Source of the DNA: a virus
Direction: 5' to 3' (one strand)
DNA: 28,534 bases
Virus record (IMG/VR): IMGVR_UViG_3300025872_000235
Coordinates: 1-28,534 of that record
How positions within the stretch are numbered: position 1 is the stretch's first letter; each line of letters begins with the position of its first letter. The position numbers and the translations under genes are program-made. The notes beneath the pieces were generated by a model, which had not been told where the DNA came from, ran no database searches, and saw only the letters and a list, made by a program, of their open reading frames with translations. Shown one piece after another: positions 23,150-27,197 of this stretch.

Positions 23150-23806
23150 ATGCCGTACAAGTCTGAAGCACAGCGTAAGCTCATGCACCATCTTGTGGCG
23201 CAGGGCAAGCTTTCCCCCAGCGTGGTCAAGGAGTACGACCGCGAGTCGAAGGGCAAGGATCTTCCGGAGTACGTCGGGAAGAAGGCTTTCGGAGGCCGGG
23301 TCGCCGCCAAGCATGGCGTGCGCTGCCCCGCTTGCGATTACCCCATCGACCAGAGCGGCCTTGCGCTGGACGCTGGCGAGGCGTGTCCTCGTTGCGGTTA
23401 TGGCAGCGCCAAGGATGTTCCGCACCGCGCCCGCGGCGGCATGCACTACGGCATGCCCAAGTCGAGCAGCGGTCGCGGCGGCGAGGTCATGGACACGACG
23501 GCCTACCGTGCGCGCGGCGGCGTGACGCAGCCGCATGGCGGTGGCGGCGGCCTTGAGACGGCGTCTATGGCGGTCGCTCGCGGCGGCGAGATGAAGTGCT
23601 CGCATTGCGGCTACGCCCACGGTGGAACGGTCAAGAAGTGTGCGCGCTGCGGCTATGCGATGGGCGGCGAGGTTGGCGGCCCGCTGCACGCGGATCTGAA
23701 GGAGATGTACCCGACCAAGCCCGAGCGTGGTGCGGATCTGGATGACGGTCAGATCCGTAACTTCGGCAACCTGTTCGCCAAGGCGATCAAGCTTCGGAGG
23801 CGCTAA
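23150..23806 (+). CDS. Two-zinc-ribbon, RGG-rich phage protein
   Basis: A 218-residue protein of unknown role. The N-terminal part (MPYKSEAQRKLMHHLVAQGK, then EYDRESKGKDLPEYV) is a module I have seen at the start of many small phage proteins. It is followed by a zinc ribbon with C59/C62 and C79/C82, an Arg-Gly-Gly-rich linker (RARGGMHYG, RGGEV, ARGGV, HGGGGG), and a second ribbon with C150/C153 and C164/C167 (CSHCGY...CARCGY). The mix of zinc ribbons and RGG repeats suggests nucleic acid or protein binding. GAGAGG precedes ATG 23150. Its TAA overlaps the next ATG by one base. Confidence 0.75.
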   Translation: MPYKSEAQRKLMHHLVAQGKLSPSVVKEYDRESKGKDLPEYVGKKAFGGRVAAKHGVRCPACDYPIDQSGLALDAGEACPRCGYGSAKDVPHRARGGMHYGMPKSSSGRGGEVMDTTAYRARGGVTQPHGGGGGLETASMAVARGGEMKCSHCGYAHGGTVKKCARCGYAMGGEVGGPLHADLKEMYPTKPERGADLDDGQIRNFGNLFAKAIKLRRR

Positions 23807-24176: not shown

Positions 24177-24725
24177 ATGGCCGACATGATGGATTGCCCA
24201 GCTTGCTGGGGAGCCAAGCCGGCCTGCAAGCGTTGCAAGGGGGCCGGCAAGCTGCCGGATCGGTTGCTCGCTCCGCACTTCAAGCTGTCGGAATTGGTGA
24301 ACAGCCCGACGGCGCGGAAGCTTGGGCTGTCGAACGATCCGACTCCGGAGATCGAAGGCAACCTTGAGCGCCTGTGTGTCGAGGCGCTTGAGCCCATCCG
24401 ACAGGTTGTCGGCCCCCTGCGGATCAACAGCGGGTACCGTTCCGACGCCGTGAACAAGGCGGTTGGCGGAAGCACGACCAGCGCGCACTCCTACGGGCTG
24501 GCGGCTGATCTCAATCCGGTCAAGATGGATTGGAAGCGGCTGATGGACGCGATCATCGCGACCGGGATCAAGCTTGATCAGTTGATCTACGAGCACACTT
24601 GGGTTCATGTCGGGCTCGCGCATCCCAAGTTCAAGAAGCAGCGCAACCAGACGCTGACCATGTTCAAGGTTGACGGCAAGCCGGTGTACGAGCCGTACAA
24701 TCCCGAAGATGAGAGGTTGGCGTGA
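24177..24725 (+). CDS. Endolysin, M15-type zinc peptidase with N-terminal zinc knuckle
   Basis: Likely cuts peptide bridges in the cell wall at lysis (VanY / M15 D-Ala-D-Ala carboxypeptidase fold). In the 182-residue product the peptidase domain starts at about residue 34 (FKLSELVNSPTARKLGLS). The zinc ligands are H104 and D111 in SAHSYGLAAD and H144 in WVHVGL, with E139 as probable catalytic acid; INSGYRSDAVNKAVGG is also typical. Unusual is the N-terminal CPAC-x6-CKRC with GAGKL (C7, C10, C17, C20), a DnaJ-like zinc knuckle. There is no signal peptide, so holin-type release is expected. GCGAGG precedes ATG 24177; the TGA overlaps the next ATG. Confidence 0.9.
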   Translation: MADMMDCPACWGAKPACKRCKGAGKLPDRLLAPHFKLSELVNSPTARKLGLSNDPTPEIEGNLERLCVEALEPIRQVVGPLRINSGYRSDAVNKAVGGSTTSAHSYGLAADLNPVKMDWKRLMDAIIATGIKLDQLIYEHTWVHVGLAHPKFKKQRNQTLTMFKVDGKPVYEPYNPEDERLA

Positions 24726-25072
24726 TGGATAGCCAGATCATCATCGCGATCACGGTTGTGAACCTGCTTGCGTGGCTTTTAACCTTCGCCGCCGGCGTCT
24801 TGAAGGCGCGCGATTGGGTCGAAGCCGTAGCCTTGTCGGCGCTGAAGTCCGGATCGGGACGATCCATCGTGACGGAGTCGGTCCAAGAGCGGCACTCGCG
24901 GCTTGAGGACAAGATGGATTCGCTGACCAAGAGCCTTGAGGTTGTCGCGGACCGCCTTGAGAAGCGGATCGACGCGCTGGCGACCCGGATGGAATCGCGT
25001 CTTGACCGGCTGGACAAGGACACGCACGCGATTGACGTTCGGCTGTCCGTGATTGAGAGCAACAAGCCGTGA
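24725..25072 (+). CDS. Membrane protein with coiled coil (holin or spanin candidate)
   Basis: The 115-residue protein has an N-terminal membrane segment at about 4-25 (IIIAITVVNLLAWLLTFAAG) and then a charged coiled coil (RLEDKMDSLTKSLEVVADRL, KRIDALATRMESRLDRLDKD). The tail after the membrane helix would face either side; such one-helix plus coiled-coil proteins serve as spanins or as partners of holins. ATG 24725 overlaps the endolysin stop (TGATG), and its own TGA overlaps the next GTG. The location directly after the peptidase strongly suggests lysis, but which role is not decided by sequence. Confidence 0.7.
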   Translation: MDSQIIIAITVVNLLAWLLTFAAGVLKARDWVEAVALSALKSGSGRSIVTESVQERHSRLEDKMDSLTKSLEVVADRLEKRIDALATRMESRLDRLDKDTHAIDVRLSVIESNKP

Positions 25073-25749
25073 ACGGTGACGGGCCGGACGTTTGCGATCT
25101 GCCGGCCAAGCCGACGATTGCAGACTTCGTCCGCGTCGGTCGGAACGATTGCGTCTTCAACTTTGGAGACGCCGGAAGCATGTCGTTTGCGGTTCCGGTG
25201 GACGATGAACGGGAGAGGTCGCCCATGCGGAAGTCGCGAAAGAAGGATCAACCGGAGGAGGGATCGCCCATGTCCGTTGACGCATCCACGCCGATCACCA
25301 CGACCGCGACGATGCCGCCGGTTGCCGGGCCGACTACGGCGACCATCGGAGTGGCGGACAACGCCATTTCGGAAGTGAAGTCGCTGGTGCCTGCGGACGG
25401 CAACGCGAACATGATCACGGTCGCGCTGGCGGTTGTGGGCGTGGCCGGCGGCGGTGCGGCGTTCAAGCTGTACCAGAACATGGTCAAGTCGAAGCATGAA
25501 AAGGAAATGAAGAAGCTTGAGATCGAAGAGCAGCGCAGCCAGAAGCAGGATGACCAGCATTCCCAGTGCAACGCCGCTCGCGTGGCGTTGGAAGCCAAGG
25601 TCGCGGCGCTCATGGCTCGCGTGGAAGAGTTGGCGGCGAAGCCCGCTGGCGCTCCGTCCGTTGATCTTGGCGACTTCAATCCGGAGGAGATCGAAGACCG
25701 GCTTGCCAAGGTTGAATCGCTGGTGAAGCCGAAGGCGAGGAGGCGGTAA
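25069..25749 (+). CDS. Single-pass membrane protein, uncertain start (lysis region)
   Basis: The long form has 226 residues and starts at GTG 25069 within the previous stop (GTGA). A shorter form from ATG 25270 has 159 residues and a far stronger ribosome binding site (GGAGGAGGGA at 25253-25262); ATG 25225 after GGGAGAGG is a third option. The shared part has a membrane helix at about 113-133 of the long form (MITVALAVVGVAGGGAAFKL), then a Lys/Glu-rich coil with one Cys, and a Pro/Ala linker. Residues 1-67 hold two Cys and look soluble. The two-start design resembles genes making long and short forms, but this is unproven. Probably a lysis-related membrane protein. Confidence 0.62.
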   Translation: MNGDGPDVCDLPAKPTIADFVRVGRNDCVFNFGDAGSMSFAVPVDDERERSPMRKSRKKDQPEEGSPMSVDASTPITTTATMPPVAGPTTATIGVADNAISEVKSLVPADGNANMITVALAVVGVAGGGAAFKLYQNMVKSKHEKEMKKLEIEEQRSQKQDDQHSQCNAARVALEAKVAALMARVEELAAKPAGAPSVDLGDFNPEEIEDRLAKVESLVKPKARRR

Positions 25750-25994
25750 TGTCGCGCGAAGAGAAGATCCAAACCGTGTTGGCGTTCATGGGCGCGCTGG
25801 TGCCGCTGATGTCGGCGCTGGCGTCCCTGCTGAATCACATGGTGCGCGAGCGCGAGGCTCGCGGCGAGGCGGTGCCTTCGGCCATGCTGAAGGCGGGCGT
25901 GGTTCTGAACGCCGGCGCGGTCAATCTGGACAAGGCGCTACAGCTTGCGAAGAAGGCGCGCGCCGGGGCCAAGGAGGCCGCCAGTGAAGGCTAA
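25749..25994 (+). CDS. Small hydrophobic/amphipathic protein (lysis region)
   Basis: An 81-residue protein beginning MSREEKIQTVLAFMGALVPL with a hydrophobic stretch at about 8-31 interrupted by a His and Asn, followed by basic, Ala-rich helix. It could be membrane-associated and is a candidate small holin, although the C-terminal half is unlike a second membrane helix. The start overlaps the preceding TAA (TAATG), with AGGAGGCGG just upstream. It overlaps the next gene by eleven bases. No family recognised. Confidence 0.65.
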   Translation: MSREEKIQTVLAFMGALVPLMSALASLLNHMVREREARGEAVPSAMLKAGVVLNAGAVNLDKALQLAKKARAGAKEAASEG

Positions 25995-26271
25995 GCTGCT
26001 GGGACTCTGGCTTGGTGTTCTTGCTGTTCTGGCCGCGATTGCGGCTTGGTTCAAGGCCAAGTCGGACGAAGAGGCCGCCCGCGAGGATGACACCAAGAAG
26101 CGCGCGGAAGCGTTGAAGACCAAGGTCGCGGAAGTGAAGGCTGAGCAGGCTGCGCGCAAGGAGGCAACTGATGCTGCCGTGGCGAAGGTGGATGATGCCG
26201 CTAGGGTGGACGCCGCGCGTGATCCTGTGGCTCTCGCTAACGATCTTCTGGCGGATGCCGGCAAGAAGTGA
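25984..26271 (+). CDS. i-spanin-like protein (N-terminal membrane helix plus coiled coil)
   Basis: GTG 25984 is the chosen start because AAGGAGG lies at 25971-25977; longer in-frame forms only add Arg/Pro-rich sequence read from another frame. The 95-residue product has a membrane helix at 4-23 (KLLGLWLGVLAVLAAIAAWF), then a Lys/Glu/Ala coiled coil to about residue 80. This is the plan of Rz-type inner-membrane spanins. The next gene starts inside its last third in a different frame, which also recalls nested Rz/Rz1 pairs. No proof of function; a generic one-helix membrane protein is the alternative. Confidence 0.65.
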   Translation: MKAKLLGLWLGVLAVLAAIAAWFKAKSDEEAAREDDTKKRAEALKTKVAEVKAEQAARKEATDAAVAKVDDAARVDAARDPVALANDLLADAGKK

Positions 26272-26641
26272 GGAACAGCCCTGCCGCTACGAAGGCGACC
26301 GGGTTTCCTGCACCAAAGACGGGTTCAAGTCTCTGACAGAGATTCTGATCCAACATCGTTCGCGTGCCGACAAGTGCGAGGTAGTCTTGGCGGACGAGCG
26401 GAAGAACGCAGAACAGGAAGCCGCGATCTTGGCTAGCTGCCAAGAGATCGTGGCGGCGATCAAGCCTTGCCCGCCCAAGCGTTCGCCCGTGTGGCCGCTC
26501 GCCGGGATCGGCGCTGCGGTTGTCGGGACCGTTCTTCTGTCGGCGGGGTTCGTCGCGAACGTGCCCGACAGTGCGCGCCTTGTGATCATCGGATCCGGCG
26601 TTTCCGCGATTGCGGGCGGCGTGATCCTAGCTTGGCCTTGA
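26195..26641 (+). CDS. Exported Cys-rich protein with two C-terminal membrane helices
   Basis: Starts inside the preceding gene in another frame; ATG 26195 is favoured by GAAGGTGG just upstream, with GTG 26219 possible. It encodes 148 residues: a signal-like N-terminus (MPLGWTPRVILWLSLTIFW), then an ectodomain with five Cys (CRYEG, VSC, DKC, ASC, PCPP) that could form disulfides, then two hydrophobic segments (PLAGIGAAVVGTVLLSAGFV and ARLVIIGSGVSAIAGGVILA). There is no lipobox, so it is not a classical o-spanin. Position after the spanin-like gene points to a lysis partner or envelope protein. The family is not recognised. Confidence 0.6.
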   Translation: MPLGWTPRVILWLSLTIFWRMPARSEEQPCRYEGDRVSCTKDGFKSLTEILIQHRSRADKCEVVLADERKNAEQEAAILASCQEIVAAIKPCPPKRSPVWPLAGIGAAVVGTVLLSAGFVANVPDSARLVIIGSGVSAIAGGVILAWP

Positions 26642-26648
26642 GTCCAAC

Positions 26649-27068
26649 ATGCCCAACATCCCGGTAAACAAGGCGCTGTACGAGCGGATCAAGCAACGGA
26701 TCAAGCGGAAGATGGTTTGGCCTTCCGCGTACGCCAGTGCGCGATTGGTGCGCGAGTACAAGGCCGAAGGCGGCAAGTACCGTGCAATGGCGCGCGGAGG
26801 CTTGACCAAGTGGTTCGGTGAAAAGTGGGTTGATCTTTCGCGGCCCAAGCCCGGCGGCGGATTTGAAGAGTGCGGGCGCGAGCGCGCCGAAGGCCGGAAC
26901 TACCCGAAGTGCGTGCCTGCGGCGAAGGCTGCGGCGATGACGCCGGCGGAGCGGGTCAGCGCCATTCGACGCAAACGCACCGCGCAGGGCGGCCGGATGC
27001 GATCCAGCCCGACGCGAGTGGCGACGTTTGCGGACGCCTTGAAGAAGAGGAAGGCCCGCGCCGATTGA
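26649..27068 (+). CDS. DUF5872-like conserved phage protein
   Basis: The 139-residue sequence has the conserved order PNIPVNKALYERIK, KMVWPSAYASARLVREYK, then GGLTKWFGEKWVDLSRP, GGGFEECGRERAEGR and YPKCVPAAKAAAMTPAERV, which I recognise as the DUF5872 type found in phages and large DNA viruses. Function is unknown. The Cys, Trp and basic residues spread through the motifs could bind nucleic acid or metal. The C-terminus is Arg/Lys-rich (AIRRKRTAQGGRMR). The ATG has a weak ribosome binding site. It is the last + strand gene before the convergent junction. Confidence 0.8.
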   Translation: MPNIPVNKALYERIKQRIKRKMVWPSAYASARLVREYKAEGGKYRAMARGGLTKWFGEKWVDLSRPKPGGGFEECGRERAEGRNYPKCVPAAKAAAMTPAERVSAIRRKRTAQGGRMRSSPTRVATFADALKKRKARAD

Positions 27069-27120
27069 TCACAGTTGCGAGATGCAACCGGCTCCCGGTT
27101 TGATCTTTCGACGCGGGCCT
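27052..27120 (+). terminator. Possible terminator at the convergent junction
   Basis: AACCGG (27086-27091) and CCGGTT (27095-27100) form a 6-base-pair hairpin with a 3-base loop, followed by TGATCTTT on the + strand. It is enclosed by a perfect 9-base inverted repeat, AGGCCCGCG (27052-27060) and CGCGGGCCT (27112-27120). It lies between the last + gene and the tRNA gene that comes from the other side, so it probably ends one or both transcripts. The T-run is imperfect. Confidence 0.5.
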
Positions 27121-27122
27121 AT

Positions 27123-27197
27123 TGGCTGGACGGGTAGGAGTCGAACCTACGATAGGCGAATTAACAGTTCGCTGCCGTGCCGCTTGGCTACCGTCCA
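27123..27197 (-). tRNA. tRNA-Asn (anticodon GTT)
   Basis: Reading the - strand, acceptor TGGACGG pairs fully with CCGTCCA, followed by G discriminator and an encoded CCA. The D arm is GCC...GGC. The anticodon arm is GCGAA-CTGTTAA-TTCGC, giving anticodon GTT (Asn). The T arm is GTAGG-TTCGACT-CCTAC with the usual TTCGA loop. U1-A72 and G73 fit bacterial asparagine tRNA. The 5' end lies one base after the stop codon of the gene at 27199-27501, so it is likely co-transcribed and cut out of that mRNA. Confidence 0.96.

Follow-up and report, generated by a model that had tools for sequence, protein, structure and literature searches.

A chain of up to five small membrane-protein genes accompanying a phage M15 endolysin, with a probable role in lysis control

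A group of little-known, uncultured bacterial viruses carries up to five small membrane proteins in company with a cytoplasmic endolysin, and these proteins most likely time and execute the bursting of the host cell. In the phage considered here the five genes, g1 to g5, probably constitute the lysis-control cassette that serves an M15 endolysin. The set departs from the textbook lysis set in having no outer-membrane lipoprotein of the usual kind. The genes and the selection on them, their hydrophobic segments, their conservation, their association with the endolysin and the lack of a lipobox protein in the scanned loci are matters of observation, while from these we infer membrane topology (by the positive-inside rule), a dual start in g2 and every functional role.

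Layout and conservation of the gene chain

The window, that is, the whole stretch of DNA analysed, is a complete IMG/VR record of 28,534 bases in which terminase, portal and capsid genes are present; it is possibly a fragment of the phage genome. On its plus strand the endolysin gene (24177..24725) is followed by g1 (24725..25072, 115 residues), g2 (25069..25749, 226 residues), g3 (25749..25994, 81 residues), g4 (25984..26271, 95 residues) and g5 (26171..26641, 156 residues). The endolysin stop and the ATG of g1 have one base in common (TGATG, 24723-24727), g1 and g2 overlap at GTGA (25069-25072), g2 and g3 at TAATG (25747-25751), g3 and g4 by 11 bases (GTG at 25984, stop at 25994), and the last overlap, of g4 with g5, spans 101 bases in differing frames (26171-26271). 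The original prediction of five overlapping hydrophobic genes at 24725-26641, behind the endolysin, proved correct in coordinates, in order and in every junction that it quoted. Among the 28 plausible genes of the window, only these five, which are consecutive, exceed 1.8 in a 19-residue Kyte-Doolittle window, the next-highest value being 1.62 in a protein of 1313 residues. Directly after g5 comes a DUF5872 gene (26649-27068, plus strand), the last gene of that strand, and just past it an inverted repeat without strand assignment (27052-27120) that is the probable end of the late operon. It is at this repeat that minus-strand genes and a tRNA-Asn (GTT; 27123-27197, minus strand) converge on the plus-strand operon. 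The DUF5872 protein also follows the cassette in two related loci (L006 and L042), and another (L086) has a truncated relative close to its end. Upstream of the endolysin, both in the window (23150-23806) and in L042, is a gene for a protein in which zinc-ribbon-like CxxC motifs recur in Gly/Arg-rich surroundings. Long antisense open reading frames across the cassette, such as 24664-25560, were taken as high-GC artefacts.

Comparison of the cassettes of relatives had been proposed as a check on the chain, and it found the chain intact in L006 and L042 and recurring, in diverged form and with mostly unchanged junctions, in L076. The first two loci hold all five genes in unchanged order with 51-70% amino-acid identity to the window, and a further locus, L005, holds g1 to g3 up to the point at which the contig ends. 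For the pair L006 and L042, dN/dS is 0.07 for g1, 0.16 for g2, 0.09 for g3, 0.57 for g4 and 0.29 for g5; the last two values are raised because the overlapping stretch inflates both, and outside the overlap they are 0.31 and 0.13. All five genes are under purifying selection. In L076 the order is g1-like, g2, g3, g4, g5, on the opposite strand to the endolysin of that record and 5 kb away from it; g2 to g5 are 27-36% identical to those of the window, g2 and g3 meet at ATGA, g3 and g4 at GTGA, and g5 again starts out of frame within g4. The g1-like gene of L076 is not contiguous with g2 and shares 28% identity with g1 over a short protein, and its likely correspondence to g1 rests on layout more than on sequence. 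Because dN/dS lies between 0.07 and 0.57 and the chain is conserved in L006, L042 and L076, g1 to g5 are not chance open frames.

Inheritance with the endolysin

The endolysin is a peptidase of the M15_3 family (Pfam PF08291, E = 1e-15; phrog_894, endolysin, 6e-36) without a signal peptide, and a 7-sequence alignment gives it an N-terminal four-Cys knuckle. Its start (24177-24270) has the conserved form MDCPxCWGxxxxCxxC, with Cys7, Cys10, Cys17 and Cys20 invariant in all close homologues. The knuckle is probably a small zinc module before the M15 domain, and is perhaps an element that targets the enzyme to the wall or the membrane.

A distribution survey was seeded by this endolysin, an endolysin of the same type being defined as at least 60% identical to that of the window (15 records, window included). 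Within this small and phylogenetically structured sample, which includes fragments and near-duplicates, g2 is encoded in 14 of the 15 records with an endolysin of this type; the 14 records whose endolysins are more diverged all lack it. The gene lies directly upstream of the endolysin in L002/L003/L004 and L024, a few kb upstream in L026, and directly downstream in L029, where it is alone of the set. In three records (L030/L076, L008 and L031) g2 is not adjacent to the endolysin, and the way in which loci were fetched does not explain these unlinked cases. The other genes recur as well: g3 in L076, L083, L084 and L082, g4 in L076, L024 and L007, with a weak candidate in L085, and g5 in L026, L024, L007 and L076. 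The portal of the window, by comparison, has a counterpart in L042 (84% identity) and in none of the other related records tested, 15 in all. Because the portal match is so restricted, endolysin and cassette must move jointly between phages whose virion genes differ.

Predicted topologies and resemblances to known lysis proteins

Family searches name none of the five proteins. Pfam and NCBIfam gave nothing above cut-off for g1 to g5, and their PHROGs matches are weak, coiled coils accounting for part of them. A collection of cultured phages (50,697 records), searched by nucleotide comparison and by tblastn, gave no DNA match, no match for g1 to g4, and one insignificant match for g5.

By hydropathy and charge, g1, which is kept in L005, L006 and L042, has an acidic N-terminus of 4 residues, one transmembrane helix (residues 5-23) and a charged coil tail of 92 residues (37% KRDE). 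From the flanking charges and the positive-inside rule it is predicted to be N-out/C-in, with the tail in the cytoplasm. This is the layout of the Mu gp25 releasin of the DUF2730 family (PMC9239132), with about four residues outside, one transmembrane helix, and a long, charged cytoplasmic tail, and g1 too is found just downstream of an endolysin. Membership of DUF2730 itself was rejected: PF10805 does not match g1 and gives one below-cut-off match elsewhere in the window, and, in a further difference from Mu, the endolysin beside g1 is not a SAR endolysin.

In an alignment of 8 homologues, g2 has an N-terminal two-Cys module, a Pro-rich linker, a Gly/Ala-rich transmembrane helix (residues 116-134) with three to five basic residues behind it, and an extended charged helical coil with an invariant Cys (Cys167). 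The charges flanking the single helix predict that the C-terminus is inside. The linker contains an in-frame ATG behind a Shine-Dalgarno-like site in 9 of 9 lineages (duplex -5.6 to -12.6), and the duplex is -6.4 or stronger in eight of the nine, as against 10% of 128 background internal ATGs; in the window the upstream start itself has a weak Shine-Dalgarno site. Two putative internal products result in the window, one from M53 (25225..25749; MRKSRKK...; duplex -8.4) and one of 159 residues from M68 (25270..25749; GGAGGAGGGATCGCCCATG; duplex -12.6), the latter predicted to be N-out/C-in. Synonymous recoding does not reject chance for these sites (combined p 0.52), since the Lys-Glu codons themselves spell the site; the site of L029, in another codon phase, is alone individually unusual (p 0.015). 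Because recoding leaves chance standing, dual initiation at residue 53 and/or residue 68 is no more than suggested. Between them, the two best internal starts of the window enclose MRKSRKKDQPEEGSP, a basic extension. In the holins of lambda and phage 21, it is an extension of this kind that makes the long forms inhibitory. A review of dual-start holins is included in PMC13056207.

The same source describes a close parallel to the layout of g3 beside g1 and g2, namely LysF1a and LysF1b of mycobacteriophages Girr and NBJ, a small two-transmembrane protein and a single-transmembrane N-out/C-in protein whose genes overlap by 4 bases alongside a signal-less endolysin (PMC13056207). Efficient lysis requires both proteins, and deleting lysF1b severely impairs it (PMC13056207). 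LysF1b has basic residues after its transmembrane helix and a charged, helical cytoplasmic tail, as in g1 and g2; the mycobacteriophage system differs in its mycolate Gram-positive host and in having two membrane genes rather than five, and the likeness noted is one of layout.

Among the five proteins g3 is the likeliest holin. Family members have 70-81 residues and up to two transmembrane helices, and g3 of the window has a strong helix (residues 10-28), a charged loop and a weaker second hydrophobic helix, and is taken as a holin candidate, perhaps of class II; in the L076 homologue two segments exceed 1.7 and the second helix is clearly hydrophobic. An earlier description of g3 as short and amphipathic is thus too simple.

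The remaining two genes, g4 and g5, form a pair. The g4 gene has a GTG start preceded by AAGGAGG and encodes a basic N-terminus, a single transmembrane helix, a charged coil and a C-terminal D-x-V-x-x-A-N motif. Hydropathy and charge predict an i-spanin-like N-in/C-out topology with a periplasmic coil in the window, L006, L042 and L076, while the g4 proteins of L024 and L007 are without a full transmembrane helix; matches are weak, to phrog_20 (holin, 6e-5) and to Rz-like proteins. The g5 gene starts inside g4, at 0.66 of its length and in the +1 frame, with an AAGGAGG that is conserved in L006 and L042. Its product has a signal peptide (recognised, as were the others, by visual inspection of n-, h- and c-regions), an invariant Cys38 and Cys47, a Cys69 present in most members, and C-terminal transmembrane helices, one in L024 and L007 and two in the window, L006, L042, L026 and L076. 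AlphaFold models of g5 and g2, built from 7-8 sequences, are too uncertain to rely on (pLDDT 55.6 and 51.5); in the low-confidence g5 model a short beta hairpin forms at the Cys pair and a helix comes after it, and Foldseek found no match to this model at E<=0.001.

The arrangement recalls Rz/Rz1 (PMC6139136): g4 has the topology of the first partner, and g5 occupies the position of the second, its gene overlapping that of g4 in a different frame and its product carrying a signal peptide and Cys residues on the periplasmic side. The differences are that g5 lacks a lipobox and carries C-terminal transmembrane helices, and that g4 is sometimes without a full helix. There is no Cys at +1 of the g5 signal end, as an o-spanin lipoprotein would have, and a C-terminal transmembrane helix without a lipobox does not make a unimolecular spanin; nor did any plus-strand open reading frame encode a lipoprotein in the five cassettes scanned (window, L006, L042, L076 and L087). 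A search for an o-spanin hidden in another frame yielded one antisense chance match. Because the defining lipoprotein is missing, g4 and g5 are not classed here as a spanin pair; of the original label of g4 as spanin-like, the topology stands and the outer-membrane lipoprotein partner does not. A second likeness, again in layout, is that of g5 to the T4 antiholin RI (PMC8385771), which shares a cleavable-type signal peptide and a Cys-containing periplasmic domain, and from which g5 differs by its C-terminal helices. Spanin-like work and a sensor of the RI type are both live options for the pair.

Lysis control and competing readings

An endolysin without a signal must exit through a lesion in the inner membrane. 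In the lysis-control reading, g3 would make this lesion as a holin, and g1 together with the short form of g2, both N-terminally anchored and N-out/C-in, would assist or time it in the manner of LysF1b and releasin. The longer g2 products, with a basic segment and the Cys domain before the helix, may represent a restrained, antiholin-like form. The g4 and g5 proteins might then act as a periplasmic pair, replacing i- and o-spanin without a lipid, or alternatively might sense the periplasm and gate the holin, as RI does in T4. The fullest form of this proposal, whereby g4 and g5 are a lipid-free outer-membrane-disruption or periplasm-sensing pair, with a disulfide-bearing, C-terminally anchored protein that has a signal peptide in the Rz1 position and an overlapping frame, and the five-protein apparatus is swapped with its endolysin between unrelated phages, is tentative and rather unlikely. 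Several points weigh against lysis control in general: no family model names the proteins, the set lies away from the endolysin and near tail genes in three phages, its composition varies (g2 by itself downstream in L029, g4 without a full helix in L024 and L007), and the structural models are poor.

A conventional Gram-negative cassette would have g3 as holin, g4 and g5 as a true, overlapped two-component spanin whose outer-membrane partner is anchored through a hydrophobic hairpin at its C-terminus rather than through a lipid, and g1 and g2 as accessories. The topology of g4 and the position, frame, signal peptide and periplasmic Cys residues of g5 fit it, and in a published spanin survey the overlapped architecture was the commonest (228 of 677 phages). 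We nevertheless consider it unlikely, given that no lipobox was found in five loci, that the C-terminal helices of g5 resemble inner-membrane segments, and that two loci have a g4 without a full helix. Small membrane proteins with a secreted, Cys-rich ectodomain that could meet an incoming phage would also suit superinfection-exclusion or membrane-immunity genes at the end of a late operon, an idea that the original prediction had entertained. Beyond membrane location nothing positive speaks for it; the late-operon position, the tight coupling and co-inheritance with the endolysin, and the lack of family support in the Pfam search make it very improbable. Equally improbable is that the five are virion or ejection-apparatus components set beside the endolysin by an accident of gene order: g2 and g3 do lie between tail-fibre and tail-tube-like genes in L083 and L084, but in most relatives these are small, mostly overlapping genes of endolysin operons, and their distribution does not follow that of the portal.

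Of the suggestion of a new or enlarged lysis system, the enlargement finds support in the linkage of the genes to the endolysin and their shared inheritance with it, in their late-operon position, and in their likeness to published cassettes with many transmembrane proteins. What is new is the protein families and the presence of g5 in the o-spanin position; the principle is already known. Gordonia phages have cassettes of three or four overlapping transmembrane genes, beside lysA or, as a 'holin cassette', distal to it, which include one-helix N-out/C-in proteins and one with a signal sequence and a helix (PMC9671378), and phage P1 has several holin-like proteins (PMC9025707). The present cassette differs from those of Gordonia phages in its five genes and different families. 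Its predicted N-out/C-in proteins place this one-helix class, the need for which in mycobacteriophage lysis was shown only recently, beside an endolysin outside actinobacteriophages and Mu-like phages. The survey also recorded, for Gram-negative hosts, 91 of 677 phages without a spanin that satisfied its localisation criteria, and g5, a protein that is conserved, lacks a lipid anchor and is encoded where Rz1 would be, offers a candidate for how some phages manage. A profile of the g2 or g5 family would make lysis regions recognisable in many unannotated viral contigs.

Two loci deserve separate mention. The L042 contig (JAGWVT010000014.1), which carries the cassette, is binned in an Actinomycetales MAG whose other contigs read alongside it have 60-62% GC, like the phage; this is either a clue to the host or, as likely, misbinning of a free phage. 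In L085 (3751-8930 of the reverse complement) the membrane genes ahead of the cytoplasmic M15 endolysin form a still longer series, consisting of a protein with a transmembrane helix and coil, g2, a possible g4, two tiny transmembrane proteins, an N-terminally anchored peptidase judged by eye to be M15-like, a two-helix protein and g5, such that this cassette possibly contains two M15 enzymes.
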